A DNA stretch of 64,000 bases from Cyclobacteriaceae bacterium (GTDB taxonomy: Bacteria; Bacteroidota; Bacteroidia; Cytophagales; Cyclobacteriaceae), in the NCBI GenBank assembly GCA_019638355.1, contig JAHBTY010000001.1, forward strand, positions 992,001 through 1,056,000, given 5' to 3'. The notes beneath the pieces are model-generated. The model was given only the letters and a program-made list of their open reading frames with translations. It searched no databases and was not told the origin of the DNA. Shown here one piece after another: positions 14,141-35,783 of the stretch. Each line of letters opens with the position of its first letter. Position 1 is the first letter of the stretch. A program made the position numbers and the translations under genes.

Positions 14141-14270
14141 AACTTTGGTGTTTAATAGTTAAAAAAATTTCCAATACTCCCTATCGAGGGATCAAAAAAT
14201 CACCCGTGTGATAAGTAGCTACAGTCATCAACAGGTGCAGAGGTTCCGGAACCCCGTGTCGTTGCAAATC

Positions 14271-14390
14271 CTATTGAAAGGTCACGACACCGACCTTTTC
14301 ATCACTAACAACAGTCCGGGATTGTGCATCAGCTTTTTCTAACATCAGCAATAGCAATCCCCATAAAATGATCCTTACAAAAAGGTTCAT
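14271..14390 (-). CDS. Small exported peptide, 39 aa
   Basis: An ATG at 14390 lies 18 nt after the traM stop. The peptide reads MNLFVRIILWGLLLLMLEKA then DAQ, a convincing signal peptide with a cleavage site after DAQ. About 15 mature residues (S-R-T-V-V-S-D-E-K-V-G..) remain. A secreted micropeptide or a decayed traN-like leader is possible: the real TraN also begins with a signal and an AQ site. It has no recognised family. Confidence 0.4.
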   Translation of the reverse strand: MNLFVRIILWGLLLLMLEKADAQSRTVVSDEKVGVVTFQ

Positions 14391-14407
14391 AATTGAATTG
14401 TTTATGG

Positions 14408-15748: not shown

Positions 15749-15784
15749 ACTCTTAATTGTTTTAAGTTTTATGTAGATAAATTT

Positions 15785-18077: not shown

Positions 18078-18086
18078 CGCTTTACT

Positions 18087-18716: not shown

Positions 18717-18726
18717 AGCCATTTCG

Positions 18727-19368
18727 TCAAATTGTTTCGTATTGTTTGTGCATCCTTTCAACAGAACGTGTTTCGCGTTCTCGCTCCCGGGCAATCAGTC
18801 TCACATCGCTATCGAAGGACTGCACGAAAGCATGTTTGTCCAGCATGTCGTCATATAACCTGTCGATGCGCACTAACCGCTCATCATCTTTCATCTCCGT
18901 CTCGTTCGACCGGATAATTGTCAGCAGTTCAGAGATTGAAGCATCACACAGGAACAGCATGTTGGAATACACAGCTGCCACATACCGGATTTCTTCGGGC
19001 GTAAAGTATTCGTTGTTCTTGCAGAAATTATTCACCCGTTTTATATTCTGGATGATGTAAACCTGAAAGGCTATGATATCGGCCACCTTGGCTGTATTCT
19101 TAATGTGTGGGTTGACATTTTTAAGCGATCCAAAGAAGTCACGGTGTAAATTGAAATCACCGTTCTTGATGTTGTGAATGGTGGTAAGTCCTTTGTCTGC
19201 TATCTCGTAGCCTTTTTTCAGGTAACCGAGATAGACCCTTAGCAAAGCAATCTGCTTAACGAGGTATTTCTTCTGCGTCTTCTTTTGCTTGAACCATTCG
19301 TCCCAGGTTTGCGCTGGTGAGGTTGTACTTAATAATATTCCTGTTACTATGACGAATAAAAATTTCAT
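18727..19368 (-). CDS. TraI-like exported conjugation protein (annotated TerB-like in relatives), paralogue 2
   Basis: The 213-residue product has a signal peptide (MKFLFVIVTGILLSTTSPAQ) and a helical body. It contains LGYLKKGYEIADKGLTTIHNIKNGDFNLHRDFF-type text, shared with the neighbour at 18087 (YKILDKGYTTIKNIAQGNYTIH). The C-terminal DERLVRIDRLYDDMLDKHAF and RSVERMHKQYE segments are also shared. It and its neighbour are about 30-40 percent alike by eye, a tandem duplication. Role in the transfer apparatus is inferred from operon position. Confidence 0.65.
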   Translation of the reverse strand: MKFLFVIVTGILLSTTSPAQTWDEWFKQKKTQKKYLVKQIALLRVYLGYLKKGYEIADKGLTTIHNIKNGDFNLHRDFFGSLKNVNPHIKNTAKVADIIAFQVYIIQNIKRVNNFCKNNEYFTPEEIRYVAAVYSNMLFLCDASISELLTIIRSNETEMKDDERLVRIDRLYDDMLDKHAFVQSFDSDVRLIARERERETRSVERMHKQYETI

Positions 19369-19378
19369 AATTCAGTAT

Positions 19379-19786
19379 TTAAAGTTTCAGACTTCTTTTT
19401 CGCGGGCCGACCAGTGAATTAATGTTCTCCCGAGTTGGCAGATCTTCGTTACTTTTCAGGCGGGTTTCGAAAGTTCTGACAGGATTAAAGGAACGGTCGA
19501 CCACATACTTTGCGTCCACTTTATCAATTCCAAAACCATGACCTTTATCGTATCGCACCTTGAAATCACATTGCACATACGGACTATCTTCATCCTTCCA
19601 GAGTGAATACGTTGTGAGATAAAATGAAGGAATGTGAGTTTCGCCCTGAAGTATTTCCATGAGATGCTGATGCAGCGACTCTCTCAGCTTACCGGGAAAC
19701 GAGGAATTACAAAGGAAGTGACCGTCAAACCCCTTCTCATTCAACAGCTTTTCCAGTTCATCGATATGTAAACCAAGTCTTCGCAT
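19379..19786 (-). CDS. Unknown tra-operon protein
   Basis: This 135-residue soluble protein has no signal or membrane helix. The start MRRLGLHIDELEKLLNEKGFDGHF is followed by YLTTYSLWKDEDSPYVQCDF, KVRYDKGHGFGIDKVDAKYV and TRENINSLVGPRKRSLKL. I recall no family with confidence. The last segment (LPTRENINSLVGPRKRSL) resembles the tails of DUF3945-type cargo proteins, so a link to them is possible. It lies between TraI-like genes with 10-nt gaps, so it is surely cotranscribed. Confidence 0.55.
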   Translation of the reverse strand: MRRLGLHIDELEKLLNEKGFDGHFLCNSSFPGKLRESLHQHLMEILQGETHIPSFYLTTYSLWKDEDSPYVQCDFKVRYDKGHGFGIDKVDAKYVVDRSFNPVRTFETRLKSNEDLPTRENINSLVGPRKRSLKL

Positions 19787-19794
19787 ACTATACT

Positions 19795-20493
19795 TTATTC
19801 CAGCCCGTAAAATTTTTTTACTACCAACACTTCATGTTCATCCTTGGCCCGGTTCATACTCAGTTGAATATTCTGGTTGTTGAACTGTTTGAGATCAGCA
19901 TAGTTTTGTTCAATCTGGTCACCGGCTTTATCGATAATTTCCAGGCGCTTTGCATCGGTCATCTGTGTTTTGAAGGAATTGATCACTAAAAGAATTTGGT
20001 CGAGGTTGTACACACTCTCATTCAGTATCCCGGTGTACACACGATACATGTAGTCGATCTCTGATCTGGTGAAGTGCTTATCCTGGTTGACCATGTGCCA
20101 GGTGAACCTGTACTCTTCAATGATCTGCTGTTGACGTTGAAGGATCATTTTGATCCTCTTATAAGTGGCGATAGTGTTCCTAACCTTCCAAAGTTCATCG
20201 TAGTACTTTTTGTATAACTGCCGCTGGCGTTCGGTCCATTGAGCAATCTCATTGAGCTTGAGTTTGGAAAGTTTGTTTTCCAACACCTTAGCTGCGTTCT
20301 GCAGCGCAATGGTTTTATTCTGAAGCCTCTGGATCATCAGATCAACGGCTTTGATTACTTTCTTCACACCTTCCTGAATGATCTTAGCAATAGGAATGGC
20401 GGCATGGCTATCCTGAATGGGAGTGACTGTTAATGTTATCATTCCTATAAGCAGGATAAAAATTGTTTTTCTTATTCGATTCATAGAAATCAT
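19795..20493 (-). CDS. Conjugal transfer protein TraI-like (DUF4141-like), paralogue 1
   Basis: Start taken at 20493 (or 20484) because the longer frame overlaps the TraG gene. The exported product has a signal (RIRKTIFILLIGMITLTVTP) and a long helical body with coiled-coil character. It ends ... DAKRLEIIDKAGDQIEQNYADL .. VVKKFYGLE, which matches the C-termini of the two TerB-like neighbours. Position directly after TraG corresponds to traI of CTnDOT-type elements. A pilus-tip/VirB5-like role is plausible but unproven. Confidence 0.68.
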   Translation of the reverse strand: MISMNRIRKTIFILLIGMITLTVTPIQDSHAAIPIAKIIQEGVKKVIKAVDLMIQRLQNKTIALQNAAKVLENKLSKLKLNEIAQWTERQRQLYKKYYDELWKVRNTIATYKRIKMILQRQQQIIEEYRFTWHMVNQDKHFTRSEIDYMYRVYTGILNESVYNLDQILLVINSFKTQMTDAKRLEIIDKAGDQIEQNYADLKQFNNQNIQLSMNRAKDEHEVLVVKKFYGLE

Positions 20494-20497
20494 CGGT

Positions 20498-22975
20498 TTA
20501 AGCTTTTCCGTTGCGTATGTCATTGGCCAGTTCAGCGATTCCTTTTTTTATATCACCGTTCCATTTTTTTGCATACGCCTGCACTTTAATTTTTTCTGAT
20601 TCCTCCGTAGTGTATGCCAGGTATTCTTCGAGAGAAACTTCGGTGGCGTATACTTTGGACAGCATTCCTCCCAGGCTGATAAATACTTCTTTATATTTCC
20701 GGGAAGGATCATTGGCTTTATTAATGGAGAGAACAAGGGCTTTCTCTTTCTCGGTGAGCCCGAGCAGTTGTTGTATCAGGTCGAACTTGTTCTGGTACTT
20801 GCTCTGGTCAAGCAAAATCTTGCAGTCTGAATTGTTGATGATCGCCTGCTTGACGATGGGCGAACTAATAATGTCCTCCACTTCCTGTGTAACCACAATA
20901 GCTTCTCCGTAAAACTTGCGGACTGTCTTGAATAAGTATTTGATGTATTCCGCCATACCTTCCTTGGCAATGGCTTTCCAAGCTTCTTCAATCAGGATCA
21001 TCTTGCGCACGCCCTTCAACTTGCGCATTTTGGAAATGAACACCTCCATGATGATGATGGTGACGACCGGGAACAGGATCGGATGGTCTTTGATGTTGTC
21101 CAGTTCAAAGACAATGAAACGTTCTTTGAGCAGTTCCAGATTCTCCGTGGCGTTCAGCAGATAGTCAAATTCACCGCCTTTGTAATATGGACGCAACACG
21201 TAGAGGAAGTTTTCTACATCGAAGTCTTTCTCCTTCACTCGATCTTCCTTCAGGATGCCGACAAATTCATCACGGAGGAAGTCATAAAAAGTATTAAAAC
21301 AAGGGAAGAGTTTTTTATCTGTCTCCAACTTCTCATAGTACAACTTCAGCGCAATGGACAAGGCCACATATTCTGAACGGTTGAAGGTTTCATCATCCTT
21401 CTTCCACAAAGCCAGCAACAGGGTCTTTATGCTTTCCTTTTTCTCGGTATCCAACACGTCTCCTTGTCCGATGTAGAATGGATTAAACCGAATGGGGTTA
21501 GCCTCATCATAGGTGAAGTAATATCCATTTACCAAATCACATAGTCCTTTGTAGGAATGACCTACATCCACCAGCACGATATGTGTGCCCTGCTCGTAGT
21601 AAGATCGTACCATGTGATTAGTGAAAAATGACTTCCCGCTGCCGGAAGGACCGAGAATGAATTTATTTCGATTGGTGCAGATGCCTTTTTTGACTGGCTC
21701 GTCTGAAATGTCGACATGAACAGGCTTGCCAGTCAGCCTGTCGCCAAGTCGTATGCCCACAGGACTAACAGAAGACTGGTAGCTCGTTTCCAGATTCAGA
21801 AAACAAGTAGCTTGTTCTGCGAACGTATCAAAGGTATCGTTCATCGGAAAGTCAGCTTCATTACCCGGAAGCCCTGCCCAGAAAATCTGTGGTGCTCCAT
21901 CGGTTTCCTGCCTCGCGATAGCATCCATCTGAGCAAGTGCCGATGAAACTTGCGTTTTAAGTTCTTTCAGTTCTGTTTTATTGTCTGTCCAAAGCAAGAT
22001 GTTGTAATGGGCCTTGACTGGTAGCCGTTGTGACGAAATAGCCTCATTCAAAAAATCATTCGTTGCATCACGACTGATGGCATTTTCACGGGAGTATGTA
22101 GCCAGCGATTGTAACCTGAGTCGTTTACTTTCTAGCTGTTTAATAGTCTTGTGTGCATCCTCGATGAAGATGTATTGGTTATAGATATGATCACAGGATA
22201 GCAGTTGACCTAAGGGTGAGGCAAATCCAACACTGAACTTGGTCTTGTCGGTGGAGTATTTATCATAGTTGATGCGTGATCCGCACAAAGCCGGAAGGTC
22301 TTCCACATCCGACAATGAATACAGTTGACAATGCAGATCGCCAACTTTCAGACCATCCTTGAAGTGGATGTCCTTGATCATGGGTTGATCTGTTTCCGAA
22401 AGCAAATAGCAGTAGCGTTCCAATAAACCGGGTTTCCTGTTATCACCTACTAATTCATCGTCCGTTATTCTGGTCAGCTTTACAAATCCACTGTCTTTGA
22501 GTATCCGTTCAAACTGTCCTGCACCATCCAGGAACTCCTGCATGCGCTGTGGATTTAGCGGGCCTTCGGGTACAATGCTCCTGCGGATCAGGTTGGAGAA
22601 AACAGAGTTGGATGGTTTTCGATTTGCTGGTTTTCGGGTAAGCATGATATAGCACTTGTGATCGAGGTAAGGGCGTTCATTAAAAAACTGTTCGCTTGAT
22701 CTCGACAGGAATGAATTTTCCTTTCCTTCAAATTCGGGTTGATGTTTCCTCGAAAGAAACCAATCCTGCTTATGGAACACAGTATTGTTGGGAAGCACTT
22801 TGATGGCTTTAACCAACACCTGATGAAAGGCTTCGTACTCCTGATCAGATAAGGTGAAAATCTCCGGAAGAGTGGCTTCAAAAGCCAGCGTTACATCGCC
22901 CTGCTTCGACAGGATGCAGTCGTGTTCTACTTTGTAGATCGGGAATACTTTATGAAATGCAATCTCCTGTGCCAT
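20498..22975 (-). CDS. traG: TraG family conjugative transposon ATPase (VirB4-like)
   Basis: The 825-residue product is the large ATPase of the secretion system. The N-terminal half (residues 1-400) is the TraG leader with AFHKVFPIYKVEHDCILSKQ and the long VirB4-type domain. The Walker A motif is GPSGSGKS in KFILGPSGSGKSFFTNHMV, and the Walker B motif is KMILIEEAWKAI. The sequence TVRKFYGEAIVVTQEVEDI follows, as in all TraG proteins. It hydrolyses ATP to power assembly and substrate transport at the inner membrane. This is the strongest marker that the operon is a T4SS. It is 3 nt from traF. Confidence 0.93.
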   Translation of the reverse strand: MAQEIAFHKVFPIYKVEHDCILSKQGDVTLAFEATLPEIFTLSDQEYEAFHQVLVKAIKVLPNNTVFHKQDWFLSRKHQPEFEGKENSFLSRSSEQFFNERPYLDHKCYIMLTRKPANRKPSNSVFSNLIRRSIVPEGPLNPQRMQEFLDGAGQFERILKDSGFVKLTRITDDELVGDNRKPGLLERYCYLLSETDQPMIKDIHFKDGLKVGDLHCQLYSLSDVEDLPALCGSRINYDKYSTDKTKFSVGFASPLGQLLSCDHIYNQYIFIEDAHKTIKQLESKRLRLQSLATYSRENAISRDATNDFLNEAISSQRLPVKAHYNILLWTDNKTELKELKTQVSSALAQMDAIARQETDGAPQIFWAGLPGNEADFPMNDTFDTFAEQATCFLNLETSYQSSVSPVGIRLGDRLTGKPVHVDISDEPVKKGICTNRNKFILGPSGSGKSFFTNHMVRSYYEQGTHIVLVDVGHSYKGLCDLVNGYYFTYDEANPIRFNPFYIGQGDVLDTEKKESIKTLLLALWKKDDETFNRSEYVALSIALKLYYEKLETDKKLFPCFNTFYDFLRDEFVGILKEDRVKEKDFDVENFLYVLRPYYKGGEFDYLLNATENLELLKERFIVFELDNIKDHPILFPVVTIIIMEVFISKMRKLKGVRKMILIEEAWKAIAKEGMAEYIKYLFKTVRKFYGEAIVVTQEVEDIISSPIVKQAIINNSDCKILLDQSKYQNKFDLIQQLLGLTEKEKALVLSINKANDPSRKYKEVFISLGGMLSKVYATEVSLEEYLAYTTEESEKIKVQAYAKKWNGDIKKGIAELANDIRNGKA

Positions 22976-22978
22976 AAG

Positions 22979-23299
22979 TTAGTTCTTGAGTTGAATGCAA
23001 ACTTTTCGGGAGGTTGACTTGATAAAATCAGGGAGCCTTCGCTTTGCCATTTTCTTCAGGAGGCCGTGCTGACCATACTTGTCGCTCATCCGGTAAACGG
23101 TCATGAACAAGAGCACACCGAGCGTCAGCGTAAGTGCGAGACAAACGAACATGTTCACCCCGATGATGTAGAGCACCGCAAACAATATCAACAGGCCGAT
23201 GAGTCCGATCGCGAGGTATGCGATATACTGCGCCTTGAGGCCTTTGAACTCAATCGGCTTGTTGATACCCTTGTTGATTTTGTAAACGCTGGATGCCAT
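22979..23299 (-). CDS. traF: Conjugative transposon protein TraF (DUF4133)
   Basis: The real start is 23299 (MASSVYKINKGINKPIEFKG), whose ATG overlaps the TraE stop as TGATG. An upstream in-frame ATG at 23353 would reach into traE. The 106-residue protein has two adjacent membrane helices (YIAYLAIGLIGLLILFAVLY and CLALTLTLGVLLFMTVYRMS) and a basic tail, the VirB3-like DUF4133 pattern. It acts with TraG at the inner membrane. Confidence 0.88.
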   Translation of the reverse strand: MASSVYKINKGINKPIEFKGLKAQYIAYLAIGLIGLLILFAVLYIIGVNMFVCLALTLTLGVLLFMTVYRMSDKYGQHGLLKKMAKRRLPDFIKSTSRKVCIQLKN

Positions 23300-23628
23300 C
23301 AGATTCCAAAGAATGATCGTAACACAGTGGCCACAATGACCAGGAACACACAACTGCCAAACCAGGCGGCAGCAACCTTGCCGGTATCGGGATCACCGCT
23401 GTTCCATTTCTGATAAACCTTTACAGCTCCTACGAGCCCAAGGATGGCCCCGATGGCATACATGAGATTGGTGCCGGTAGCGAAATAACTCCGCACGCGC
23501 ATGGTAGCTTCGTTGATACCGGCATTACCGTCCTGCGCTTCAGCCAGCGCATAGGTAATCAGGTACACGATCAAGGCAAGACCGAGTGCTTTACCTTTTT
23601 GAATGGTGAATTGAACTGCTCTTTTCAT
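23299..23628 (-). CDS. traE: Conjugative transposon protein TraE (DUF4134)
   Basis: This 109-residue pilin-like protein has a signal peptide and two membrane helices, with QDGNAGINEATMRVRSYFAT and NLMYAIGAILGLVGAVKVYQ. KWNSGDPDTGKVAAAWFGSC follows. This is the DUF4134 family, the VirB2-like subunit of Bacteroidota conjugation systems. It is placed first of the classic tra genes, after one unknown gene. Confidence 0.9.
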   Translation of the reverse strand: MKRAVQFTIQKGKALGLALIVYLITYALAEAQDGNAGINEATMRVRSYFATGTNLMYAIGAILGLVGAVKVYQKWNSGDPDTGKVAAAWFGSCVFLVIVATVLRSFFGI

Positions 23629-23650
23629 AGGATTTAATTTTGTTTGATGG

Positions 23651-24244
23651 TTATTGATTATTTACTCCGGTGTTTTCCTGCTGTGGCCACCACGTTTTGA
23701 CTTCACTTAGTTCGATTTGAAATTCACAATGCTCCTTGCAGGAATTGTAAATGAATGCCGTGACCTCAGGCTCATGCGTAGTATGAAACAGTTCAGGATA
23801 ATTCGATAGTAGAGTGCGAAAGAGTTCAGCACACTCAGCCTTACTGCCGACAGCGACAATTTCTGTGAGCGTATTGATTTCTTCGAGAAGGGTTGAGACA
23901 GATTTAAGCATGGCTTCCTCTGCTTCATTTGTTTCCGCTTCCGTAATTGGTTCCTCCGGTTCCTGTGCAGTAGCTACACTCAAACTTTCTGTTTCACTTT
24001 TTTCTTCACGTGGAACATTTTCTGATTGACGTCTACCATATTTCACTGAGCCCATGAGTTCAATAGATTCATTTGAATCAGTTTGATTCTCTCGCTCGTG
24101 GGTGTTCGTGAGATTTAGTTTCTTTTGTTTGAAAATGTTAGTGATCTCGTTGCTGTATAGTAGCAGTGCAGTGATAGCGTAGTAGCCACCGATAAGAAAG
24201 GCGATAGTTGAAATGAACTCCTGCCAGGAAATGGATTCGAGCAT
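23651..24244 (-). CDS. Unknown bitopic protein at start of the tra operon
   Basis: The 197-residue product has one N-terminal membrane helix (FISTIAFLIGGYYAITALLLY), a Glu/Ser/Thr-rich linker of about 60 residues, and a small helical C-terminal domain. The latter contains AECAELFRTLLSNYPELFHTTHEPEVTAFIYNSCKEHCEF. Its place matches the accessory gene often found between TraD and TraE. I do not recognise a family. It is 22 nt upstream of traE and is the first gene after the divergent promoter region. Confidence 0.55.
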   Translation of the reverse strand: MLESISWQEFISTIAFLIGGYYAITALLLYSNEITNIFKQKKLNLTNTHERENQTDSNESIELMGSVKYGRRQSENVPREEKSETESLSVATAQEPEEPITEAETNEAEEAMLKSVSTLLEEINTLTEIVAVGSKAECAELFRTLLSNYPELFHTTHEPEVTAFIYNSCKEHCEFQIELSEVKTWWPQQENTGVNNQ

Positions 24245-24387
24245 AGCTTCCGTGATTGATTACGGAGGCTAAGGTGTGTGTCAGAAAAATCTAATATTCA
24301 CAAGTTGGTACCAAGGTGGGTGATTTTTTTCCGTAACGGCAAAAAACCCTTGCTTATGAGCAATACAATTATAAACACAATAATAGA
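24245..24387. promoter_or_regulatory. Divergent promoter region between tra operon and ubiquitin-like operon
   Basis: This 143-bp region separates two operons running apart. On the plus strand TTGC (24350s) and TATAAA, about 16 nt apart, precede the Ubl start by roughly 20 nt and could be its promoter. A hairpin with TCCGT/ACGGA arms (24247-24268) lies beside the tra start. Placing both operons on one region suggests coordinated or opposed control, but no operator can be named. Confidence 0.35.
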
Positions 24388-24630
24388 ATGGAAAATAAAC
24401 CCGAAAAATTCGTGTTCTTCATCGGAAAGGTGAAGCATGAAACTGACAAAGCCGAGCTTACCCCTCGCGAAATTCTGACACAGTTCGCCCAAGTTTCCCC
24501 CGACAATTTCACTCTTGCTCTTAAAAATCAGGGCAATTTTGATGAGTTGACGAACTTAGACGTTCCAATTCAAATGAAGGATGGAATGCATTTTGTCCTT
24601 TTTGACAAGACGCCAACCACTGTATCATGA
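24388..24630 (+). CDS. Ubiquitin-like protein (multiubiquitin-domain-like, single copy)
   Basis: This 80-residue small protein has a beta-grasp-like pattern. FVFFIGKVKHETDKAELTPR resembles strands 1-2 and the start of the helix. LTPREILTQFAQVSPDNFTL is the helix, and FDELTNLDVPIQMKDGMHFV the late strands, as in Multiubiquitin (PF14452) proteins. The spacing and its operon with E2, E1 and JAB genes support the call. Two oddities: there is only one Ubl unit, where relatives often have two or three, and the C-terminus is ..FDKTPTTVS with no glycine tail. It overlaps the E2 gene by 4 nt (ATGA). It is inferred to be the modifier of the conjugation pathway. Confidence 0.72.
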   Translation: MENKPEKFVFFIGKVKHETDKAELTPREILTQFAQVSPDNFTLALKNQGNFDELTNLDVPIQMKDGMHFVLFDKTPTTVS

Positions 24631-25001
24631 ATTACGGGATTGAGAGGCTCCATGCAGATTTAAAACTGCTCGGTTATGACCCTGTAGCTATCAAGGATAG
24701 CTCAGGGTTAAATTATGCAATGATTGGTGGGTTCATTATTCCGGCTGGAAAGTTTGAAGGCAGGGTAATTGATTTAGCTATACCGGCCCCTCCTGACTAT
24801 GGTCGAATTGTAGGCTCATCAATGCACATTAAATCGAATCCAATTCTGGTTGACTACCAGAATGTTCCGAGTGTAAGAAATGTGATTGCGAGTAACCTGG
24901 GTTCCGAATGGAGATATTGGAGCTTTGCTTTCAAGTTTCTGCCTGCAAATCCCACAGAATATTTAATGAGTCAAATTATAACCATTCTAAAAAATGTATA
25001 A
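24627..25001 (+). CDS. E2-like protein (Prok-E2_E family)
   Basis: The 124-residue product begins NYGIERLHADLKLLGYDPVAIKD. It continues with MIGGFIIPAGKFEGRVIDLAIPAPPDYGRIVGSSMHI and W-R-Y-W-S-F-A-F-K-F, which fits the short Prok-E2_E type encoded next to multiubiquitin and ThiF genes. There is not a single cysteine in the protein, so it cannot form a Cys-thioester like canonical E2s. Aspartate, serine or tyrosine residues in the region after IPAPPDYG are candidates for any alternative acyl carrier, or the protein is structural. Its last 8 nt overlap the E1 gene start, indicating tight stoichiometric coupling. Confidence 0.75.
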   Translation: MNYGIERLHADLKLLGYDPVAIKDSSGLNYAMIGGFIIPAGKFEGRVIDLAIPAPPDYGRIVGSSMHIKSNPILVDYQNVPSVRNVIASNLGSEWRYWSFAFKFLPANPTEYLMSQIITILKNV

Positions 25002-26364
25002 TGAGTTTGCAGTTTCGATTCCAGACTATCTTAACAAAGTTTTACTTGACCACCTCATTAGAGATGACGGCCAGGAGGATTTGTGCTTTGCCTTGTACGC
25101 TCCATCATTAGGTTCAAACAGAAGGGCAGTCTTGATTAACGAAATTATTTTGCCGCAGGAACCTGATAGACAAGTGCATGGTAATGTGAGCTTTAATGAG
25201 GTATACTTTAAAGGAGTTTGTGCCCTTGCAATGTCGAAAGGAATGGGACTATGTTTTCTTCATTCACATCCATTTCCCGGTTGGCAGTCAATGAGTGATG
25301 ATGATATCAAAGCCGAAACAAAAATGGCCCCCACCGTAGAGAGCCTGACTAATCTTCCGCTTGTCGGCCTTACTACCGGCAGCGATGGAACCTGGAGTGC
25401 AAGAGTTTGGGAGTATTCACCTAATAACGATTTGACTATGCAATGGGTGGCCTTGGTCAAATCAGTTGGCGTGTTAATGAGAATTAGTTACAACGATCGA
25501 CTGCTTCCTCCAACTCGATACCGTGAACAATTCAAGAGAACGAGAACTGTTTATGGTGTTCAAGATCATCAAACAATTTCGAGATTAACTGTAGGGATAG
25601 TTGGTCTTGGCAGCGTAGGAAGTTTGGTGGCGGAGATGCTTGCACGTATGGGCATTCGCAAGTTTGTGCTTATAGATTTTGATATTATTAAAGAGCATAA
25701 TCTTGACCGCCAATCAGGTTCCAGCACTCAAGACGTTGGCAAGTTTAAGATTGCCGTTGCAGAGGAACTCATTAGAAGATCAGCAACGTGTGAAAATGTT
25801 TCTATTGAGGCCATAAATTCAAGCATTGCTTTAGACATGGGTTATCGAAAAGCTTTGGATTGCGATGTCTTGTTTTCATGTGTTGACAGGCCGCTACCCA
25901 GGTACATACTTAATCACATTGCTTACTCACATCTTATTCCGGTAATTGATGGAGGTATAAAAGTGCGATTCGAAAAGTCCGAATTTGAAACTGCTGAATG
26001 GCAGCTGCAAACAGTTACAGTCGGCAAACCCTGCTTACAGTGCCTTGGTATTTATCAGCCATCAGAAGTTGATTTGGAAAGAAATGGTAAGCTGGATGAT
26101 CCAAGCTATATGGCAGGTTTAGACAATGACCACCATCTTAAAACCAATGAAAATATATTTCCATTCAGTGCGAACCTTGCGTCAATGGAAATATTCCACC
26201 TAATAGCATTATGTACCCAAATTGGTGGCGCTGAATTTAACATTCAACGGTACAGGTTAGTGCATGGAATCATTAGTAATTATCACAATGACCACTGTGA
26301 TCCAAATTGCGCATTCGTTAACAGCACGGCTACTGGAGATCATCACTTTTCACCACTGCAATAG
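24994..26364 (+). CDS. JAB (JAMM) protease fused to ThiF-type E1 enzyme
   Basis: The 456-residue product has two domains. Residues 20-140 are a JAMM metalloprotease: E50, H90-S-H92-P and S99-x-x-D give the E..HxHP..SxxD zinc motif, intact. Residues 185-456 are a ThiF/E1 adenylation domain. It has GLGSVGS (205-211), the nucleotide-binding VLIDFDIIKEHNLDRQ (D228, D230, R239) and the SCVDRPLPR segment. It also has C347-x-x-C350 and C435-x3-C439, a structural zinc pair. The fusion implies that Ubl processing (JAB) and activation (E1) are carried by one protein. A catalytic cysteine for thioester transfer is not obvious; C266, C290, C296 and C407 are candidates. Confidence 0.85.
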   Translation: MYNEFAVSIPDYLNKVLLDHLIRDDGQEDLCFALYAPSLGSNRRAVLINEIILPQEPDRQVHGNVSFNEVYFKGVCALAMSKGMGLCFLHSHPFPGWQSMSDDDIKAETKMAPTVESLTNLPLVGLTTGSDGTWSARVWEYSPNNDLTMQWVALVKSVGVLMRISYNDRLLPPTRYREQFKRTRTVYGVQDHQTISRLTVGIVGLGSVGSLVAEMLARMGIRKFVLIDFDIIKEHNLDRQSGSSTQDVGKFKIAVAEELIRRSATCENVSIEAINSSIALDMGYRKALDCDVLFSCVDRPLPRYILNHIAYSHLIPVIDGGIKVRFEKSEFETAEWQLQTVTVGKPCLQCLGIYQPSEVDLERNGKLDDPSYMAGLDNDHHLKTNENIFPFSANLASMEIFHLIALCTQIGGAEFNIQRYRLVHGIISNYHNDHCDPNCAFVNSTATGDHHFSPLQ

Positions 26365-26595
26365 TTGCAAACACAAAATACCGTGATTTTGGCTGTTTAC
26401 TCATCTTTTTCGTAGATTTCAATGGTTTCCTTGAAGAGCCCAACTGGAAGCCATCGAAACCTTGCATAGAGAGAAAATTGTGCAATAGTTTGCCCCAAAG
26501 GCATATTATCAATTATTTTTTTGATGGATGGCAAAAAGTCTCTTTTCGTCAGCTATCTATTTATAAATAACATTAAAAAAGAACCATATGCTCAA

Positions 26596-27144
26596 ATGAA
26601 TCCACAATTACTCTCAATCTTAGATGCTCAAGATTGGCCATCAATAATCCTGAAACTATACGCACATTCCATCTTCAGATTGAAATGGTTTGGTATTAAA
26701 TCCGATGCCAGATTACAAGGAAGACAGTACAAGGACTTTGCCCATGAAGCCGTTACTCTGGTCTATGAGGGAAAACGGGTTTGGGATCCCAATAAGGAAC
26801 CTGATATTGTTAAATATTTGAAATCTGTAATCAACAGTTTAATCTCGAACCTATTAAAATCTGAAGAATACAAAAGTGCGACTGGTGCTAACCTCACCGA
26901 TGAAATGAATGACGCTATGCTGTTTGATAATATGTTGGAGATGAGATTCCTGAATAAAGACATAATTGAGCAAATTGAGGATACGCTGTTAGAAGATGCT
27001 GATATGTGGTTAGTATTTACTGACCTCGCTAAAGGAATGACTCCACAGGATATTTCGGAAAAATACTCCGATATGGACATCGACAAGGTCAGAAATATCC
27101 AGAAGCGAATAAAAAGACACATTAGGAATATTAAGAACCTATAA
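26596..27144 (+). CDS. Sigma-70-like protein of the ubiquitin-like operon
   Basis: Start set at 26596 (MNPQLLSILDAQDW); the frame is open to an ATG at 26521 but the extra residues look unconserved. The 182-residue product carries a sigma region 2-like part (FAHEAVTLVYEGKRVWDPNK.. YLKSVINSLISNLL). A C-terminal region 4-like helix-turn-helix follows (VFTDLAKGMTPQDISEKYSD..KVRNIQKRIKRHIRNI). It begins 156-230 bp after E1, so it may have its own promoter. It is 0-1 nt from the ImmA/IrrE gene, so the two are coupled. It may transcribe the operon or another locus; not testable here. Confidence 0.6.
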   Translation: MNPQLLSILDAQDWPSIILKLYAHSIFRLKWFGIKSDARLQGRQYKDFAHEAVTLVYEGKRVWDPNKEPDIVKYLKSVINSLISNLLKSEEYKSATGANLTDEMNDAMLFDNMLEMRFLNKDIIEQIEDTLLEDADMWLVFTDLAKGMTPQDISEKYSDMDIDKVRNIQKRIKRHIRNIKNL

Positions 27145-28359
27145 ATGAATTTAGATATGAACAAGCACGACAACAAGGACGACCAAGAAAGCCTATTGAG
27201 CCTGTTTTTATCCACGTCTCAAGAAATTGATGAGAGTATTGATAAGGCAAAGGAAATCATTATACAGGAAAGCTTAGACCCGGACAAACTACAAAGGGAA
27301 GGGATGAGTTTTATTACATCCATCCAGCAAAGAGTTCGTCCAAGACCCCTTTTAACTATTGATGATCTTGTTAAGAAACTTACTAAGCTTGGCTTCCCCA
27401 AAACCTTTTTGGAGAAAAAGATTGTTCCATCAGCAAAGGCAGTTGACTGGAGAAAACAAAACTATCCTTCAGAGATTGATGCCATTGCTGCATTTGTATC
27501 TGCAATATTTGGATTACAGGAAAGAAATTTGTGGACTACGGATAGGATTGCATTAGCTGAATCACCTGCCTGGTTGGGAAGATTCAAGTCGCCAGCAAAT
27601 GCCAACGTAAGCCAGATTGCAGCGTATTCATACTACGCGCACTACCTAGCTAAACTTGTAGTTAAAGCGTGTAAGGTTGACAAGGACGAGCAACTTCCAG
27701 GCGATAGCGATGAGTTTAAAGTTAATTACCTAAACAAATACAAGAAGTTTGATTTAGAATCCTTGCTAAACTACGCCTGGGAACTTGGTTTCTGTGTACT
27801 TCCCCTTAATGACCCAGGAGTATTCCACGGTGCTTGCTGGAATATAGATGGAAGAAAAGTAATTGTACTAAAACAGTCAACGAAGTACCATGCGCGATGG
27901 ATTTTTGATTTGCTACATGAGTTGTATCATGCATTAGCTCACCTGGATGAGGCAAATGCGTCTGTTATTGAGTCTGAGGAGCTTAATCCATTCTTAGATC
28001 ATCAATCAGAAGAAGAAAGAGAAGCTAACACTTTTTCACGTTATGTGCTTTTTGGAAATCGTTCAGAGGAAATTGTTGAACATTGTGTTAGGCTTGCACA
28101 CGGAAGAGTAGAAAATCTTAAATCAGCAGTTAGCAATATTGCAAGGTCGGAAAATTTGCGCCCAGACATCCTGGCAAATCTTGTTGCTTACAGACTTTCA
28201 TTAAGTAATCAGAATTGGTGGGGTGCAGCAACATCATTTCAAATTGCCGAACCAGATCCATTTACAGTAGCGAGTAGCATACTCGTTAAAAACATTTCAA
28301 TTGAGGGCTTAAATACAATGGATCAAAGCCTACTTAAAATAGCCCTTTCAAATAATTGA
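27145..28359 (+). CDS. ImmA/IrrE-type metallopeptidase
   Basis: The 404-residue product has H258-E259-L-Y-H262 within LLHELYHALAHLDE, the COG2856/DUF955 zinc motif, preceded by RWIFDLL. The N-terminal 250 residues are helical, with no recognisable DNA-binding domain visible. The C-terminal 100 residues (EEREANTFSRYVLFG, the third-ligand E within SEEEREA) complete the active site. Members of this family cleave XRE or sigma-type repressors in a regulated way. It directly follows the sigma-like gene with no gap, so that protein is an obvious candidate substrate. This is an inference from adjacency. Confidence 0.78.
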   Translation: MNLDMNKHDNKDDQESLLSLFLSTSQEIDESIDKAKEIIIQESLDPDKLQREGMSFITSIQQRVRPRPLLTIDDLVKKLTKLGFPKTFLEKKIVPSAKAVDWRKQNYPSEIDAIAAFVSAIFGLQERNLWTTDRIALAESPAWLGRFKSPANANVSQIAAYSYYAHYLAKLVVKACKVDKDEQLPGDSDEFKVNYLNKYKKFDLESLLNYAWELGFCVLPLNDPGVFHGACWNIDGRKVIVLKQSTKYHARWIFDLLHELYHALAHLDEANASVIESEELNPFLDHQSEEEREANTFSRYVLFGNRSEEIVEHCVRLAHGRVENLKSAVSNIARSENLRPDILANLVAYRLSLSNQNWWGAATSFQIAEPDPFTVASSILVKNISIEGLNTMDQSLLKIALSNN

Positions 28360-28364
28360 CAATT

Positions 28365-28970
28365 ATGGAAAAAAAATTTAGACGAATTGTCCCGGACAAT
28401 GTGAGAGTCGAAGACTTGAAACCTGTTAACATAGCTTGCGGGTCAACAAAATGCAATGAAGGCCTTCATTGTTTTAGCTTGAAGAAATCAGCCTTAAGGA
28501 AACATAATAGCGAACGAGTATGCCATGAGTGTGGGGCTGATTTAATTGAATGGGATAGAGTTCATAAGAATAACATTAAGGACTCCAGATTCATTTTCAA
28601 GTCAATGAAAAATGAATTGATAAGGCATGTTTTCTGGCACACTGAAATAGAGGAAGCTGCAATCACTCACGCTCAGAATCGCGGAAAGGTTGAATTGCGA
28701 TCAAAGGCTTCCAAGCTTATCAAAAGCAGAATTGGTAAGCACACATTTATGGACGGAAGGCAGACACCTTTGGCCGGAAAGGAAATAATAAATTATGCAC
28801 AGCACGCCACAGCAACATGTTGCCGTAAGTGCCTTGAGGCTTGGCATAACATTCCTCAAAACAGAATACTGAGCAGTGAACAAATTGAGTTTTGTACGAA
28901 CCTGGTTATGTTATACATAACCGAACGGGTACCCGATTTAAAGGATGAAGGAGTAGAAGTTGTAAAGTAA
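28365..28970 (+). CDS. Zinc-ribbon protein with DUF4186-like domain
   Basis: An ATG at 28365 is preferred over a TTG at 28356 that would overlap the previous stop. The 201-residue protein has an N-terminal zinc ribbon: one Cys pair (CGSTKC) and a second (CHECG) about 40 residues later. It also carries a C-terminal DUF4186-like domain containing DGRQTP, AQHATATCCRKCL and W-H-N-I-P. The function of DUF4186 is not known. The strictly kept H-A-T-A-T-C-C-R and W-H-x-I-P residues suggest metal binding. It sits between the peptidase and the radical SAM enzyme and is probably a functional partner of the latter. Confidence 0.7.
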   Translation: MEKKFRRIVPDNVRVEDLKPVNIACGSTKCNEGLHCFSLKKSALRKHNSERVCHECGADLIEWDRVHKNNIKDSRFIFKSMKNELIRHVFWHTEIEEAAITHAQNRGKVELRSKASKLIKSRIGKHTFMDGRQTPLAGKEIINYAQHATATCCRKCLEAWHNIPQNRILSSEQIEFCTNLVMLYITERVPDLKDEGVEVVK

Positions 28971-28982
28971 TGCCTTAAAGCA

Positions 28983-29981
28983 GTGAGCAATATTAACACA
29001 GAAGAGGTTTCAGCCAGACTTCGATTAAAAGGTATCGATGTCTCACGGAAGGCAATATCGATTACAAATTTTAACGGCTCGAATCAAGAGAAAGACTTTC
29101 AGGAGCCAGCGAATTGTAATGGTTATGGCAGGGTACGCCATTTTAAATTAAGTGCCAGTGATGGTTGGCCTCAAAATCCATTACCGATTCTTCCCGCTGC
29201 CAAAGCTCTTGGCCTAAAGCCGGATTCACAGATACGTGCACAGGTTTTCCAGAATTCAATTTGTAATTGGAGATGTTGGTATTGTTTCGTGGATTTTAGT
29301 TTACTAAAGGGGGATGAAAAGCACTCCTCTTTCTTAACGGCTGATGAACTGATTGAATTGTACCTTAGGGAGGAGGCACCTCCACCAATGATTGACCTTT
29401 CAGGAGGGCAACCCGACTTAACACCCGAGTGGGTGCCTTGGGTTATGGAGAGTCTATCTAACAAAGGACTGCGGGATAAGGTTTACCTATGGTCTGATGA
29501 CAATTTAAGTAATGATTATTTATGGAAGTACTTAACCAAAGAGCAGATTGACTTAATGTTGAATTATAAAATGTACTCAAGAGTCTCCTGCTTTAAAGGA
29601 ATTGATGAAGAGTCCTTTTCAATTAATACCAAAGCTTCTCCTGAACTTTTTCGGAATCAGTTTAAACTGTGTAAACGATTAATACAAACAGGGTTTGATT
29701 TATACGGGTACATTACACTCACAGCCTCCACCAAGACCGATTTCAGGTCTGTTGTTCCACGATTCTTAGATGAATTGCAAACTGAAAGCGAAATGTTTCC
29801 ATTGAGGATCGTTCCGCTGGAGGTTAAGAAATACAGCCCAATGACGAAAAGAGTCGATTCAGTATTTCAAGACATGATAGATGGTCAGTACATCGCAATA
29901 AAGATTTGGGAGGAGGAAATGGCCAGACGATTCACCAAAGAACAATTAAATGTTCCGATAACGGAAGTGAAATATAAATAG
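28983..29981 (+). CDS. Radical SAM enzyme
   Basis: The start is a GTG at 28983; an in-frame TAA just upstream excludes a longer ATG start. The 332-residue protein has the cluster motif C94-N-W-R-C98-W-Y-C101 (CxxxCxxC). D-L-S-G-G-Q-P-D-L (the GGE-like SAM loop) lies about 40 residues later. Further down, the barrel pattern LYGYITLTASTKTDF appears. There is no SPASM-type C-terminal cysteine cluster, so it is not an obvious peptide maturase. It follows the DUF4186-like gene after 12 nt. Its substrate is unknown; acting on a protein or nucleotide linked to the ubiquitin-like system is conjecture. Confidence 0.85.
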   Translation: MSNINTEEVSARLRLKGIDVSRKAISITNFNGSNQEKDFQEPANCNGYGRVRHFKLSASDGWPQNPLPILPAAKALGLKPDSQIRAQVFQNSICNWRCWYCFVDFSLLKGDEKHSSFLTADELIELYLREEAPPPMIDLSGGQPDLTPEWVPWVMESLSNKGLRDKVYLWSDDNLSNDYLWKYLTKEQIDLMLNYKMYSRVSCFKGIDEESFSINTKASPELFRNQFKLCKRLIQTGFDLYGYITLTASTKTDFRSVVPRFLDELQTESEMFPLRIVPLEVKKYSPMTKRVDSVFQDMIDGQYIAIKIWEEEMARRFTKEQLNVPITEVKYK

Positions 29982-30008: not shown

Positions 30009-30524
30009 TTACTCTTTTACGAGCACGTTCACACCCGCCATCGGTGTTTGGGTGGAGGCTTCGGTTACCGTTCCGGTTATTTGAATCAACGCACGATGCA
30101 CAATATTGCCATTCGTACCTTCATGAACCGAGGACCGTTCTTTGCTGCCCTCTCCGTTAGCCTTCTTTAATGTAATGGCCGCTTCCTTCTCATGCACCTT
30201 GTACGATATTTTGCGCGGTGCCAGCAACTCATCCAACGCTTCGCGTAGTGTGCGCTTGTCAATTTTGAGTGACACGTTCGGTTCATCCTGCAACTGGCTG
30301 ATGCTATAAGCGAATTTTACTTTCGCAATAGCTTCAATTTCATGCAAGGCTTTTTCAAAAGGCAAATCGGTAATGCTGATGGATACTTCCGTGTCCAACA
30401 GTTGTGCGTAGTTTGTGTGGGCTAGTGTAACTCCGCATAGGGTGATGGCTATTATTCCCTGCACCGCGCATATTTTCATAACCTTCCAAAGTTTTGCGGT
30501 AAAACTTTTTTTCATAACTTTCAT
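30009..30524 (-). pseudogene. Truncated SusC/RagA-type TonB-dependent receptor
   Basis: The 171-residue frame has a signal and the secretin/TonB N-terminal (STN) domain (LLDTEVSISITDLPFEKALHEI .. ALDELLAPRKISYKVHEKE). The first strand of the carboxypeptidase-D-like regulatory domain follows (IQITGTVTEASTQTPMAGVNVLVKE), and then a stop. A normal protein of this type continues for about 900 residues with GxTT..., plug and barrel, so about 85 percent is missing. It lies downstream of an intact sigma and FecR gene in the expected order. The remaining part was probably lost when the neighbouring cargo inserted. Confidence 0.85.
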
Positions 30525-33277: not shown

Positions 33278-34132
33278 CTATTTTATAGAGTTGATTTTTT
33301 GAGAGCAAACTCCCTCTACAATCGATTTCATTTTTTCCATTCTTTTAACTAGGACGAGAACTTCATCCTTTGATATAACATAGTCATCTTTGTAGCGCGC
33401 ATCGACATAACCTCTTTTCAAAAGATCAAATAGATGCTTTTCAGACTTGTTATTTTCAGGAAAGAGAAGGAACAGTTCTTCTGAAATATTCTTTGTTTGT
33501 TTTTTTAATTTGCCAAGATTGTGGGTCTTAGGTTTGTAACCTGTAAAAACCAATAAAGTTGTGTAGTAGTAAGATTCAGCTGCTTGGTGAAGTATAAATG
33601 CACATACATTGTATTCTTCCTTCGAAATATAGCCATCAATTCCGCTGATGAATCCGTTCGCCCGTTTGAACCACTTTTCAAAATATTGTTGTGATATTTC
33701 TTTGGCTTCTTGGGCAGTTAAGACACGAGCCTCAACAAAATTCACCTTACCGGAATCAAAAAGGAGAATTCCTTCCTTCACAATATCGGCAAAGAAATAC
33801 TGGCCCCAGGCAAGCCCCTCGTTAATGTAGTCAATCTCGTGTATCTCAAGGTTTACCGGTGGGTTGAAATGATCAACCCTATCCATAATCTTGCTTTCCT
33901 GCACGTAAGTCTTCTCGGGATTGTCCTTGGTCACCACTAAGAAATCATAGTCGCTGATATACTCGTGGATGATACCGTCTTTGGTTTGGTAGCGGTGCTC
34001 CACCTGCGTGCCCTTTGCGTGGCTGCCAAACAAAATAATTTTCTCAGGACTCACTACCTCCTGGATAATGTCCACAATACGCCTGATCTCGTATTGCTTG
34101 TTTTCGGAAAGATGGGTAAGGGAGGTTTTCAT
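33278..34132 (-). CDS. MNT-HEPN fusion: nucleotidyltransferase plus HEPN domain
   Basis: Residues 1-130 form a minimal nucleotidyltransferase. G-S-H-A-K-G and S-D-Y-D give the GSxxxG and DxD catalytic motifs, with a third acidic residue in NLEIHEID. Residues 140-270 are a HEPN domain (YFEKWFKRANGFI..CAFILHQAAESYYYTTLLVF, RGYVDARYKDDY). HEPN-MNT pairs are toxin-antitoxin modules in which the MNT enzyme nucleotidylates and neutralises the HEPN RNase. Here both are in one polypeptide. It is 3 nt from the AbiEii gene, so it belongs to that operon. Confidence 0.8.
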   Translation of the reverse strand: MKTSLTHLSENKQYEIRRIVDIIQEVVSPEKIILFGSHAKGTQVEHRYQTKDGIIHEYISDYDFLVVTKDNPEKTYVQESKIMDRVDHFNPPVNLEIHEIDYINEGLAWGQYFFADIVKEGILLFDSGKVNFVEARVLTAQEAKEISQQYFEKWFKRANGFISGIDGYISKEEYNVCAFILHQAAESYYYTTLLVFTGYKPKTHNLGKLKKQTKNISEELFLLFPENNKSEKHLFDLLKRGYVDARYKDDYVISKDEVLVLVKRMEKMKSIVEGVCSQKINSIK

Positions 34133-34135
34133 ACG

Positions 34136-34936
34136 CTAAAACTTAAAATTTCTTTTCGATTCTCTGAATACATCATCAAATTTCGGCAGTTCGTCCATTT
34201 GGTTTTCCAATTTCCTTTCCCAGTCTTTTTTAAAGTTCTTTTCCTTGGCCAATACTTTTTCTTCCAACTTCGTAGGATCGTGCTTTTTGTTGGTGGCTTT
34301 TCGCTCAAACTCGCCACGGCAGTCTTTGGGTTTAAGTCCATCGTGCTCGGTCAGGTACCAGAAGTCGTAAAGATCTCTTGGCTCGGTACGCCCCATCAAG
34401 GCGGCCATTTTTTCTATCAACACTTCCGGAAGCGAATAGCACTGTAACAAAAAAGAATCCGGGGGCAAGTCGGAGTACGTGATAATCAAAGGCTTTGTTT
34501 CGATTTCAAATTCCAGTATTTCTCCGCGTGTGATATCGATCTTGATATCGCGACTGTCGATATTTGCCTGAAGCGGCCCTACATAATTTACGTAAAACAC
34601 AAGGCTTCCGCTTTCGTGCTCCACATGTTCTTTGAATTTCAGCGAAATGTTGGCTTCCTGTTTCACGAACGCATATATCTTTTCGAATTCTTTGAGCAAT
34701 TCCTGGTTGGTAATTTTTTCATCTATAAGGGTGAAGTCAAGGTCTTCCGAGAACCTGTAGTCTTCAAAGTAAATTTTCTTCAATACGGTGCCGCCCTTAA
34801 ACACAAGGCTCTTGAAAAGTAATTCATTCTTTGAGATACCATAGAGAACCCACGATAGAACATAATCCTTTTCTAACTGCGTATCTTTCAGTTTGTATTT
34901 GGCCGCTGCCGCGCTTACTTCTTTTGGCTTTATCAT
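34136..34936 (-). CDS. AbiEii toxin-like nucleotidyltransferase
   Basis: Start at 34936 (MIKPKEVSAAAAKYKL) follows the AbiEi stop by one base; a longer frame begins at 34960. The 266-residue protein has the AbiEii/AbiGii features. F-K-G-G-T-V-L-K-K (the GG..T motif) and F-S-E-D-L-D-F-T-L (the DxD motif) are both intact. EKMAALMGRTEPRDLYDFWY follows in the C-terminal half. It is the toxin of type IV toxin-antitoxin and phage-abortive systems, modifying nucleotides or tRNA. Its antitoxin gene AbiEi lies directly upstream. Confidence 0.88.
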   Translation of the reverse strand: MIKPKEVSAAAAKYKLKDTQLEKDYVLSWVLYGISKNELLFKSLVFKGGTVLKKIYFEDYRFSEDLDFTLIDEKITNQELLKEFEKIYAFVKQEANISLKFKEHVEHESGSLVFYVNYVGPLQANIDSRDIKIDITRGEILEFEIETKPLIITYSDLPPDSFLLQCYSLPEVLIEKMAALMGRTEPRDLYDFWYLTEHDGLKPKDCRGEFERKATNKKHDPTKLEEKVLAKEKNFKKDWERKLENQMDELPKFDDVFRESKRNFKF

Positions 34937-34937
34937 G

Positions 34938-35783
34938 TCAACTAAATATGGGTGATACAATATCAGAAAGTTCCATGTTTTGCCGTACGTACCAGGTGCC
35001 GTTCATCTTTCCTTTTTTCTCGTACGAAGGTTCCAGCAAAATGTAAGAGGGCGTTATCATGGCATGGAGCTTACCCGATATAGAATTGTTGATTTTGAGT
35101 AACTCCAGCAGGAATCCGAGCCGTTTAATTACCGATTGAGCCTTAAATCGTTCGCAATAATTCAGAAGTTTCTGGTAATCAATTTTTTCCCGCGACTTAT
35201 AAAGCGCCTTGGCAATTTCACTAATACCACCCGCATAGTCAGGTTTATAAAGGCAATCGATGAAGGTCTTTTCAAGATCGGAACAGGCAGCCTTGTTGAA
35301 ACTATCCACCCACAACTCGGTTGCTCCGAAGTAATGGTTAGGGTTATGGTAGATGAACTGAAACTTGTGCCCTTTTATTTTTACGGATGACGGTTTGATC
35401 TGCCTGTTCACTACAACTTGTTGTCTGAACGAAGGCTGCGTGATAAGACTGTGAAGTTCCAGCGCACTGTAATAGCCGATATAATACCCGGCATTTCCGG
35501 CAAGATATTTCACTACCAGGTGCGTGTTTGGAAAATAGGTATTAGGGTCCTGATCATACGGAATAATCCAATAGACTCCCTCTTTGAGTCTTAGCAAGAG
35601 CCCGCGTTTAACCATGCCGCTAAGCAGTTTTTTGGTTGCCTCTCGGGTTGAACTTTTAAGCACCTCGGCAGCTTCCTGAAGGGTAAATGCCGGCCGGCCA
35701 GCGTCATTAAAATGCCGTAGGAGTACCGACCCCTGGGTAAGCAGTGTTTTCGTTTGAATATTTGCCGGGTTGCTATATTTCAT
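34938..35783 (-). CDS. AbiEi antitoxin-like regulator
   Basis: The 281-residue protein has an N-terminal winged-helix domain (FTLQEAAEVLKSSTREATKKLLSGMVKRGLLLRLKEG). A larger C-terminal domain contains YPNTHLV-like text and IDCLYKPDYAGGISEIAKAL, as in AbiEi. AbiEi represses its own promoter and counters AbiEii. It precedes the toxin gene in one operon, and two 40-bp repeats in its promoter region are candidate operators. Confidence 0.88.
   Translation of the reverse strand: MKYSNPANIQTKTLLTQGSVLLRHFNDAGRPAFTLQEAAEVLKSSTREATKKLLSGMVKRGLLLRLKEGVYWIIPYDQDPNTYFPNTHLVVKYLAGNAGYYIGYYSALELHSLITQPSFRQQVVVNRQIKPSSVKIKGHKFQFIYHNPNHYFGATELWVDSFNKAACSDLEKTFIDCLYKPDYAGGISEIAKALYKSREKIDYQKLLNYCERFKAQSVIKRLGFLLELLKINNSISGKLHAMITPSYILLEPSYEKKGKMNGTWYVRQNMELSDIVSPIFS

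Follow-up and report, generated by a model that had tools for sequence, protein, structure and literature searches.

Closest described systems and organization of the locus

Class 6e polyUbl operons have been described as combining a ubiquitin-like (Ubl) protein, an inactive E2/RWD-like protein and a JAB domain fused to an E1, and as occurring in mobile elements; the portion of the source available here also tabulates one solo-Ubl case in this class and records speculation by its authors on addiction or protection against invaders (Iyer, Burroughs and Aravind 2006, PMC1779556). In the accessible part of a second source, DNA damage is reported to control immune operons, including the ubiquitin-like operon Bub, via CapW, CapH+CapP and CapK+CapS, three controller families that all act through repressors, with CapP being activated by single-stranded DNA (ssDNA) and cutting CapH; according to the same part, phage protection has not been shown so far for ubiquitin-like operons such as Bub (PMC13373217). 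PprI/IrrE also senses ssDNA, as stated in the available part of a third report (PMC10904395). Such controllers bear on the question of how bacteria silence toxic immune operons as long as neither infection nor damage has occurred. The present study analysed a 64-kb stretch (hereafter the window, with 385 open reading frames, ORFs) of the 4.49-Mb genome of a Cyclobacteriaceae bacterium, in which the ORF list and family scans recovered, each at its place, all seven plus-strand genes of the original prediction. It is probable that they constitute a composite locus, in which a class 6e operon is joined to a protease-gated sigma switch that would drive both the Ubl operon and an adjoining remnant of a radical SAM (rSAM) operon. 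The features are as follows.

24338..24361 (+): promoter-like site, GGCAAAAA-N13-AGC, 50 nt upstream of the Ubl start (exact match and profile)
24388..24630 (+): gene 1, Ubl, single domain, 80 aa, C-terminus -TVS, no Gly-Gly (ORF and alignment)
24627..25001 (+): gene 2, E2/RWD-like protein with zero cysteines (PF14462 and alignment)
24994..26364 (+): gene 3, JAB (HxHP..S..D) fused to a ThiF/E1-type adenylation domain (ThiF 3.7e-31 and alignment)
26530..26553 (+): second GGCAAAAA-N13-AGC site, 66 nt upstream of the sigma-like gene (exact core and conserved sister block)
26596..27144 (+): gene 4, sigma-like protein, 182 aa from ATG 26596, a start conserved in the sister contig L029 (longer ORF from TTG 26521)
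27145..28359 (+): gene 5, fusion of a small domain (residues 1-110) of the type found in the triad described below and an ImmA/IrrE protease (residues 140-404, HELYH) of the rSAM-operon type (PF06114 and part-wise matches)
28356..28970 (+): gene 6, DUF4186 protein with a Cys-containing N-terminal part (PF13811 1.9e-24)
28983..29981 (+): gene 7, rSAM protein with CX3CX2C at C94/C98/C101 (Radical_SAM and model)

Genes 1-3 share with class 6e the JAB fused to E1 and the inactive E2/RWD-like protein, and they form a class 6e ubiquitin-like conjugation/deconjugation operon. In contrast to the tandem Ubl repeats and metal-binding protein Y of that class, the window encodes one 80-aa Ubl domain, and none of its seven genes has a protein Y match; it also carries a sigma-like gene and an ImmA/IrrE gene, whereas no sigma or IrrE controller is mentioned in the available part of PMC1779556. 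Relatives of the window Ubl operon carry DUF6527, which may correspond to protein Y. As in Bub, a ubiquitin-like conjugation operon lies next to a controller, a CapP-type protease being among the Bub controllers, but a sigma-based controller is not described in the accessible part of PMC13373217. Bub is the nearest modern label for genes 1-3, and the window operon is not assigned to it. Bub conjugation proceeds by serine/oxyester chemistry, with which the window E2 is compatible at most, having zero cysteines and a WxxxS Ser that is invariant in seven of seven aligned E2 sequences. BIL (BilABCD) possesses an E2 with a catalytic cysteine and a separate JAB, unlike the cysteine-free E2 and the E1-fused JAB of the window. 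Relatives of the triad likewise place a CapP-type protease beside immune operons, as CapH+CapP does, but where that pair has the helix-turn-helix (HTH) repressor CapH, they have a sigma-like gene and a non-HTH small protein, and the window protease itself belongs to another subfamily.

Ubl operon and its relatives

The reported overlaps among the first three genes (4 nt for Ubl/E2, 8 nt for E2/E1) were confirmed, and their family assignments held in part. Gene 2 matches Prok-E2_E (PF14462) just under the cut-off (22.9 vs 25 bits), and gene 3 matches ThiF and shows in alignment an N-terminal JAB-type part, its metal motif (HSHP..S..D) being intact and GxGxxG present by eye; the 80-aa Ubl has no match in Pfam, NCBIfam or PADLOC at E <= 1. 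The Ubl does match Ubl ORFs of four other loci, one of them annotated multiubiquitin (L028, E 7.7e-4). The E1 has relatives in 14 of 146 relatives' genomes (E <= 1e-15) and in 27 plasmid records, and a single-protein scan of the genome contig collection with E1 returned none. In nine of 12 plasmid loci opened via E1, the annotation places an ImmA or HigA-type gene close to the Ubl operon, and in two it names a sigma factor; the HigA-type genes numbered four, and the sole one read (L019) has an HExxH motif. An HTH+ImmA pair or fusion occupies the same position in further Ubl loci (L032, L042, and plasmids such as L019 and L026).

Other arrangements were also seen around such operons. Two divergent HTH+ImmA-type gene pairs stand side by side before one Ubl-E1 operon (L042:5919-8286, by eye), and the Ubl-E1-DUF6527-like loci L035, L036 and L037 have another divergent set by eye, consisting of a larger sigma-like protein and a Panacea-like protein of ~280 aa, with a caspase-like protein in two of the three, also by eye. 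In a Rhodococcus plasmid (L017:3918-6421), a DarT-family ADP-ribosyltransferase and an ADP-ribosylglycohydrolase adjoin a Ubl operon with a HigA-type regulator.

A recurrent triad beside immune operons

A diverged sigma-like protein, a small protein of ~95-145 aa and a CapP-type ImmA/IrrE protease form a triad that recurs in Bacteroidota, and gene 4 and the N-terminal part of gene 5 are the sigma-like and small components of this candidate mobile immune-controller module, which elsewhere includes the CapP-type protease. The family matches proposed for genes 4 (sigma) and 7 (rSAM) exist, both of them sub-threshold, and gene 4 also has a sub-threshold DUF433 match (0.022). Relatives of gene 4 (E <= 0.001) were present in eight of the 146 relatives' genomes. 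In seven of these eight, window included, the sigma-like gene adjoins an E1-family gene, lying after E1 in the window and G011 and divergent from it in G027, G054, G077, G089 and G139 (G139 has a diverged E1, which matches the window E1 at E 2.4e-4); in the eighth (G020), it heads an operon of the cyclic oligonucleotide-based antiphage signalling system (CBASS) type (cyclase 4.7e-153). The small protein and the ImmA/IrrE protease usually lie behind the sigma-like gene, G077 being without an adjacent ImmA match. The suggestion that sigma factor and protease provide a trigger was therefore a good reading, since the two genes recur adjoining Ubl/E1 operons.

A phylum survey with a profile of the eight sigma-like sequences detected matches at E <= 1e-6 in 23 of 395 genomes, window included. 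At the 22 loci other than the window, a small-protein match (E <= 0.1) adjoined the sigma-like gene in 18 (16 at E <= 0.01), and an ImmA match was near it in 15. A profile-supported immune or other partner accompanied 10 of the 22. The partners comprised E1-type genes (L088, L093, L095, L099 and L100, those of L095 and L100 being, by eye, E2-E1-JAB proteins with a metallo-beta-lactamase-like neighbour), CBASS cyclases (L090, L092 and L094), PsyrT (L098) and TnsB (L091). In addition, L097 looks Ubl-like from ORF reading alone, and L108 resembles by eye an ordinary FecI/FecR sigma pair. A Pontibacter plasmid has a clean divergent form of the triad; its annotation calls both the sigma-like and the small protein hypothetical. 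Seven triad proteases were tested, and each matched PADLOC capP along almost the full model (3e-56 to 1e-66). PADLOC families matched by at least two of 144 inner neighbour ORFs include E1-E2, Cyclase, JAB and caspase, and among 128 outer neighbour ORFs no family was matched more than once, single restriction-modification, AbiE and other defence matches occurring there. Viral contigs contained no relatives of the L031 sigma-like protein, the one queried.

Two triads stand next to genes of other kinds. The triad of L091 (3465-9805) is divergent from a Tn7-like tns set (TnsB 5.5e-28; other tns genes by eye), where control of transposition is possible, and that of L098 (7986-11884) is followed immediately by a PsyrT-like gene (1010 bits).

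Fusion of a triad domain to another protease in gene 5

Gene 5 is the ImmA/IrrE gene that had been proposed (Peptidase_M78 above cut-off), and its sequence retains HELYH and a downstream Glu. Its two parts have different relatives. For residues 140-404, E-values are 2e-98 to 2e-61 against XRE-ImmA proteins from four rSAM operons and 1.5e-3 at best against triad proteases. For residues 1-110, the best match to a triad small protein has 1.5e-5 (Pontibacter Ubl triad), compared with 0.037 at best for rSAM-operon proteins. By these part-wise matches, the DNA-binding front of an rSAM-operon regulator was exchanged for a sigma-like protein and a small domain, and this exchange is the strongest sign that the two form a transcription-control unit equivalent to an HTH. 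No family named HTH was matched by genes 4-5 in the Pfam, NCBIfam or PADLOC scans.

A two-box site before the Ubl operon and the sigma-like gene

Comparison of upstream regions revealed a two-box pattern, GGCAAAAA-N13-AGCAT(A), that precedes the sigma gene. Divergent loci have it ahead of the partner operon as well, and many occurrences form inverted repeats. Near sigma genes, the spacing between the boxes peaks at 13 (25) and 12 (18), other spacings from 8 to 19 giving 0-9; the peak at 12 is probably in part an A-run slipped by one. The exact core occurs twice in the 64-kb window, both times on the right strand, with 0.09 expected and one of 100 shuffles reaching two, and nine times in the whole genome, two of these being the sites at this locus, 2.2 kb apart. 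A profile made without the window used 16 sites from ten other loci, hand-chosen from 28 near-sigma matches outside the window and L029 (omitting 12, of which seven were at main triad loci and five at weak-sigma loci), and it placed 24338 at the top of all window positions, scoring 19.1 vs 10.0 for the next. The site at 26530 is supported by its exact core and by a conserved block in the otherwise diverged intergenic region of the sister contig, and L092 and L099 carry site-similar sequences by eye. An exact-site search of 295 class genomes returned 38 sites in 35 genomes, the reversed-pattern control summing to 19, and the sole intergenic site among those fetched belongs to the already known triad of G503. 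If the site is what it appears to be, this short promoter code may reveal which operons the triad controls.

The DUF4186-rSAM operon

Gene 6 is indeed DUF4186-like, and gene 7 falls below the Radical_SAM cut-off (25.7 vs 29.5). Relatives of gene 7 were found in seven plasmid records, all of which carry a DUF4186 relative alongside. The five plasmid copies opened encode, in this order, a ~146-aa protein, XRE-ImmA, DUF4186, rSAM, a methyltransferase-like protein of ~430 aa, ASCH and a P-loop kinase; in the Aulosira copy, Pfam identifies the ~146-aa protein as DUF6932 and matches the methyltransferase weakly, and in the Roseovarius copy the place of the methyltransferase has no annotated gene. 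A scan of genome contigs with the rSAM alignment yielded 90 loci, of which 80 from many phyla were kept, including one archaeal metagenome-assembled genome (MAG) that may be a binning error. Partners near these 80 were ImmA (70), DUF4186 (71), methyltransferase-like (64), ASCH (71) and kinase (73), all five occurring together at 47 of the 58 loci whose flanks were long enough and none in L201. In the Bacteroidota sample, the rSAM gene is rare (4/395 genomes counting the window). No relatives of the rSAM protein were detected in viral contigs, and no match in phage records.

Profiles of the methyltransferase, ASCH and kinase had no match at E <= 0.05 among the window ORFs, and a search of the whole genome around the window with one methyltransferase relative also gave no match, which is weak as an empty answer. 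The window accordingly holds a truncated copy of this operon, with only the ImmA part, DUF4186 and rSAM of the six-gene set (XRE/ImmA-DUF4186-rSAM-methyltransferase-ASCH-kinase), and the XRE part was replaced by the sigma/small module.

The model of the window rSAM protein is excellent (pLDDT 96.5, 60 sequences) and has QueE, SuiB and SkfB as its best PDB matches by E-value, the viperin-like entries listed reaching a TM-score of at most 0.54. A viperin-like antiviral nucleotide enzyme was considered and rejected, the match being weak only (20.6 vs the NCBIfam viperin cut-off of 180 bits). From the fold matches, we call gene 7 a distinct rSAM family. The Aulosira rSAM core and operon kinase weakly match the PADLOC pVip (3.9e-5) and VakA (1.2e-5) models; the window differs from pVip/VakA in having no kinase, an rSAM protein far under the viperin cut-off and a fold nearer QueE and SuiB by E-value. 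In one rSAM operon, a dCTP deaminase/dUTPase-like gene (by eye) lies between DUF4186 and rSAM (L120:9021-9755).

Seven genes as three modules

The original prediction treated all seven genes as one system. The spacing between genes 3 and 4 is 231 nt, counted from the likely sigma start ATG 26596, and the seven genes therefore form at least two candidate transcription units. Gaps of 0-12 nt had been claimed for the last four genes; short spacing within genes 4-7 holds, with the correction that genes 5 and 6 overlap by 4 nt (listed TTG start). A consensus scan found fewer promoter-like sites than in shuffles and about as many terminator-like ones. A contig of the same genus (G011:C53, L029) has the order E2 end, E1, sigma, ImmA, DUF4186, rSAM and the start of one more gene, this last partial gene matching a methyltransferase-like profile. 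Identities to the window are 70% (E1), 74% (sigma), 67% (ImmA), 80% (DUF4186) and 78% (rSAM), and the E1-to-sigma spacing is 237 nt, compared with 231 nt in the window. The contig was taken as the same as L122 (JAAFHY010000146.1, Cytophagales MAG), gene positions matching; it is the one rSAM locus of the 80 with sigma, small protein and E1 nearby.

One integrated seven-gene defence system, with DUF4186 and rSAM acting with the Ubl pathway, for example by producing a modified substrate or effector, would explain this shared order at 67-80% identity, the short gaps within genes 4-7 and the two-box site common to both units. Set against these are the 231-nt gap after E1, the missing downstream partners of rSAM, and the gene neighbourhoods. 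When E1 homologues were checked for genes 4-7, the sigma/ImmA part recurred but the DUF4186/rSAM part did not: besides the window, DUF4186 and rSAM are near E1 in one of 29 E1-match loci (some of them short contigs) and in one of 80 rSAM loci, always the same-genus contig. The single-system claim is accordingly abandoned, and we regard it as very unlikely. Only slightly less unlikely is a chance neighbourhood, in which three mobile cassettes would share a conjugative element without being functionally coupled. Conjugative-transposon and AbiE surroundings and the occurrence of the modules apart elsewhere fit it; the fusion of the small domain to an rSAM-type protease, the identical order in the sister contig and the common site before both units speak against it. 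As far as sequence comparison can tell, the seven genes are three modules (a Ubl operon, a sigma/small switch and a remnant of an rSAM operon) and not one machine.

Proposed protease-gated sigma switch

For the composite locus with a sigma switch, the following course is proposed. In unstressed cells, the sigma-like factor would be held in check by the small domain. A damage signal would activate the protease (ssDNA is the probable one, judging from CapP and PprI/IrrE), the activated protease would cut the small domain, and the freed sigma-like factor would then bring RNA polymerase to promoters of the GGCAAAAA-N13-AGC type ahead of the Ubl operon and of its own gene. The roles of the small protein as inhibitor and substrate and of the sigma-like protein as activator are the simplest transfer from CapP/CapH, because the triad proteases are CapP-like; sigma activity and a part in defence are likewise inferred. 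What the sequence shows is the modules, the fusion, the recurrence beside immune operons and the site common to both units.

The main rival holds that gene 4 is a repressor or antirepressor, and that the protease removes gene 4 or its partner to derepress the operon, as in CapH+CapP. The weak sigma similarity of gene 4, the operator-like inverted repeats formed by the divergent sites and the HTH+ImmA pairs in the same position in L032, L042 and L026 would all suit such a mechanism. Two boxes with a preferred 13-nt spacing look promoter-like, however, and the best PDB sequence match of gene 4 is a sigma factor; we consider derepression rather unlikely, while giving it more credit than the two explanations discussed above.

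Several results weigh against the sigma-switch reading. For gene 4, family matches are weak (sigma TIGR02985 E 0.0055; best PDB match 3mzy, sigma-H, 0.0015), hhalign against the window's own extracytoplasmic function sigma gave a probability of 1%, and the AlphaFold model is too poor to use (pLDDT 49). In the phylum survey, 12 of the 22 loci, the weakest sigma matches among them, had no verified partner, and the joint Ubl and rSAM neighbourhood is known from two genomes, both of the same genus. With capP E 0.0012, the window protease does not resemble CapP; triad small proteins match capH weakly in two of five tested, and their identification with CapH is not supported, profile comparison (hhalign) with four HTH partner proteins having failed. 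As for the site, its consensus was first picked by eye on loci including the window, the reversed pattern matches five times in the own genome vs nine, and looser scoring gives 18 matches in the window. In 60 simulated windows, the mean maximum was 12.5 and the highest 19.9, at least one beating the site at 24338; the site at 26530 lies outside the top 12 of the profile, and the window-free profile supports the first site and hardly the second. At threshold, no site was found within 400 nt of the sigma gene in 14 of 29 loci, window and L029 apart (L030, L038, L089, L091, L092, L099, L100, L101, L103 and L105-L109), and 29 of 30 fetched exact sites are inside ORFs, the 295 genomes yielding no new triad.

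We tentatively suggest, at somewhat less than an even chance, that the triad is a fourth immune-controller family, exerting positive control through a sigma factor, an inhibitor, a damage-activated protease and a two-box promoter; that the DUF4186-rSAM operon is an undescribed system of many phyla; and, as part of the same positive-control reading, that the window triad captured two operons at once. If this is true, a sigma-based, protease-gated switch would follow a logic unlike that of the repressor-based controllers. The triad also gives a concrete test of what triggers ubiquitin-like operons such as Bub, and the conservation of the six-gene rSAM operon is wide enough to deserve a function. 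Among the open-access papers listed, preprints and subscription papers aside, neither a sigma-small-ImmA controller (including the available parts of PMC13373217, PMC1779556, PMC10853773 and PMC9679502) nor, in the portions covered, the six-gene rSAM operon was found described, and the novelty of both is provisional. A Tolypothrix island has genes including DUF4186 and ASCH, the accessible part of its report giving no function for the rSAM operon (PMC9679502).

Neighbouring genes

An integrated element beside abortive-infection genes had been proposed, and the surroundings bear this out, AbiEi/AbiEii, a HEPN-nucleotidyltransferase and tra genes of the conjugative-transposon type being confirmed nearby. 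On the minus strand, CTnDOT-type conjugation genes (TraM, TraJ, TraG P-loop and DUF4138) occupy 12000-24244, their ORFs stopping just short of the Ubl operon, and a tyrosinase-domain gene (10492-11484) lies to their left. On the other side, an opposite-strand ORF ends 27 nt past the rSAM stop codon:

30009..30524 (-): ORF, probable gene fragment (sub-threshold match to STN, the TonB-receptor N-terminal domain)

Further right of the module edge, at 33278-35783, lie an AbiEi/AbiEii type IV toxin-antitoxin pair and the HEPN-nucleotidyltransferase protein.

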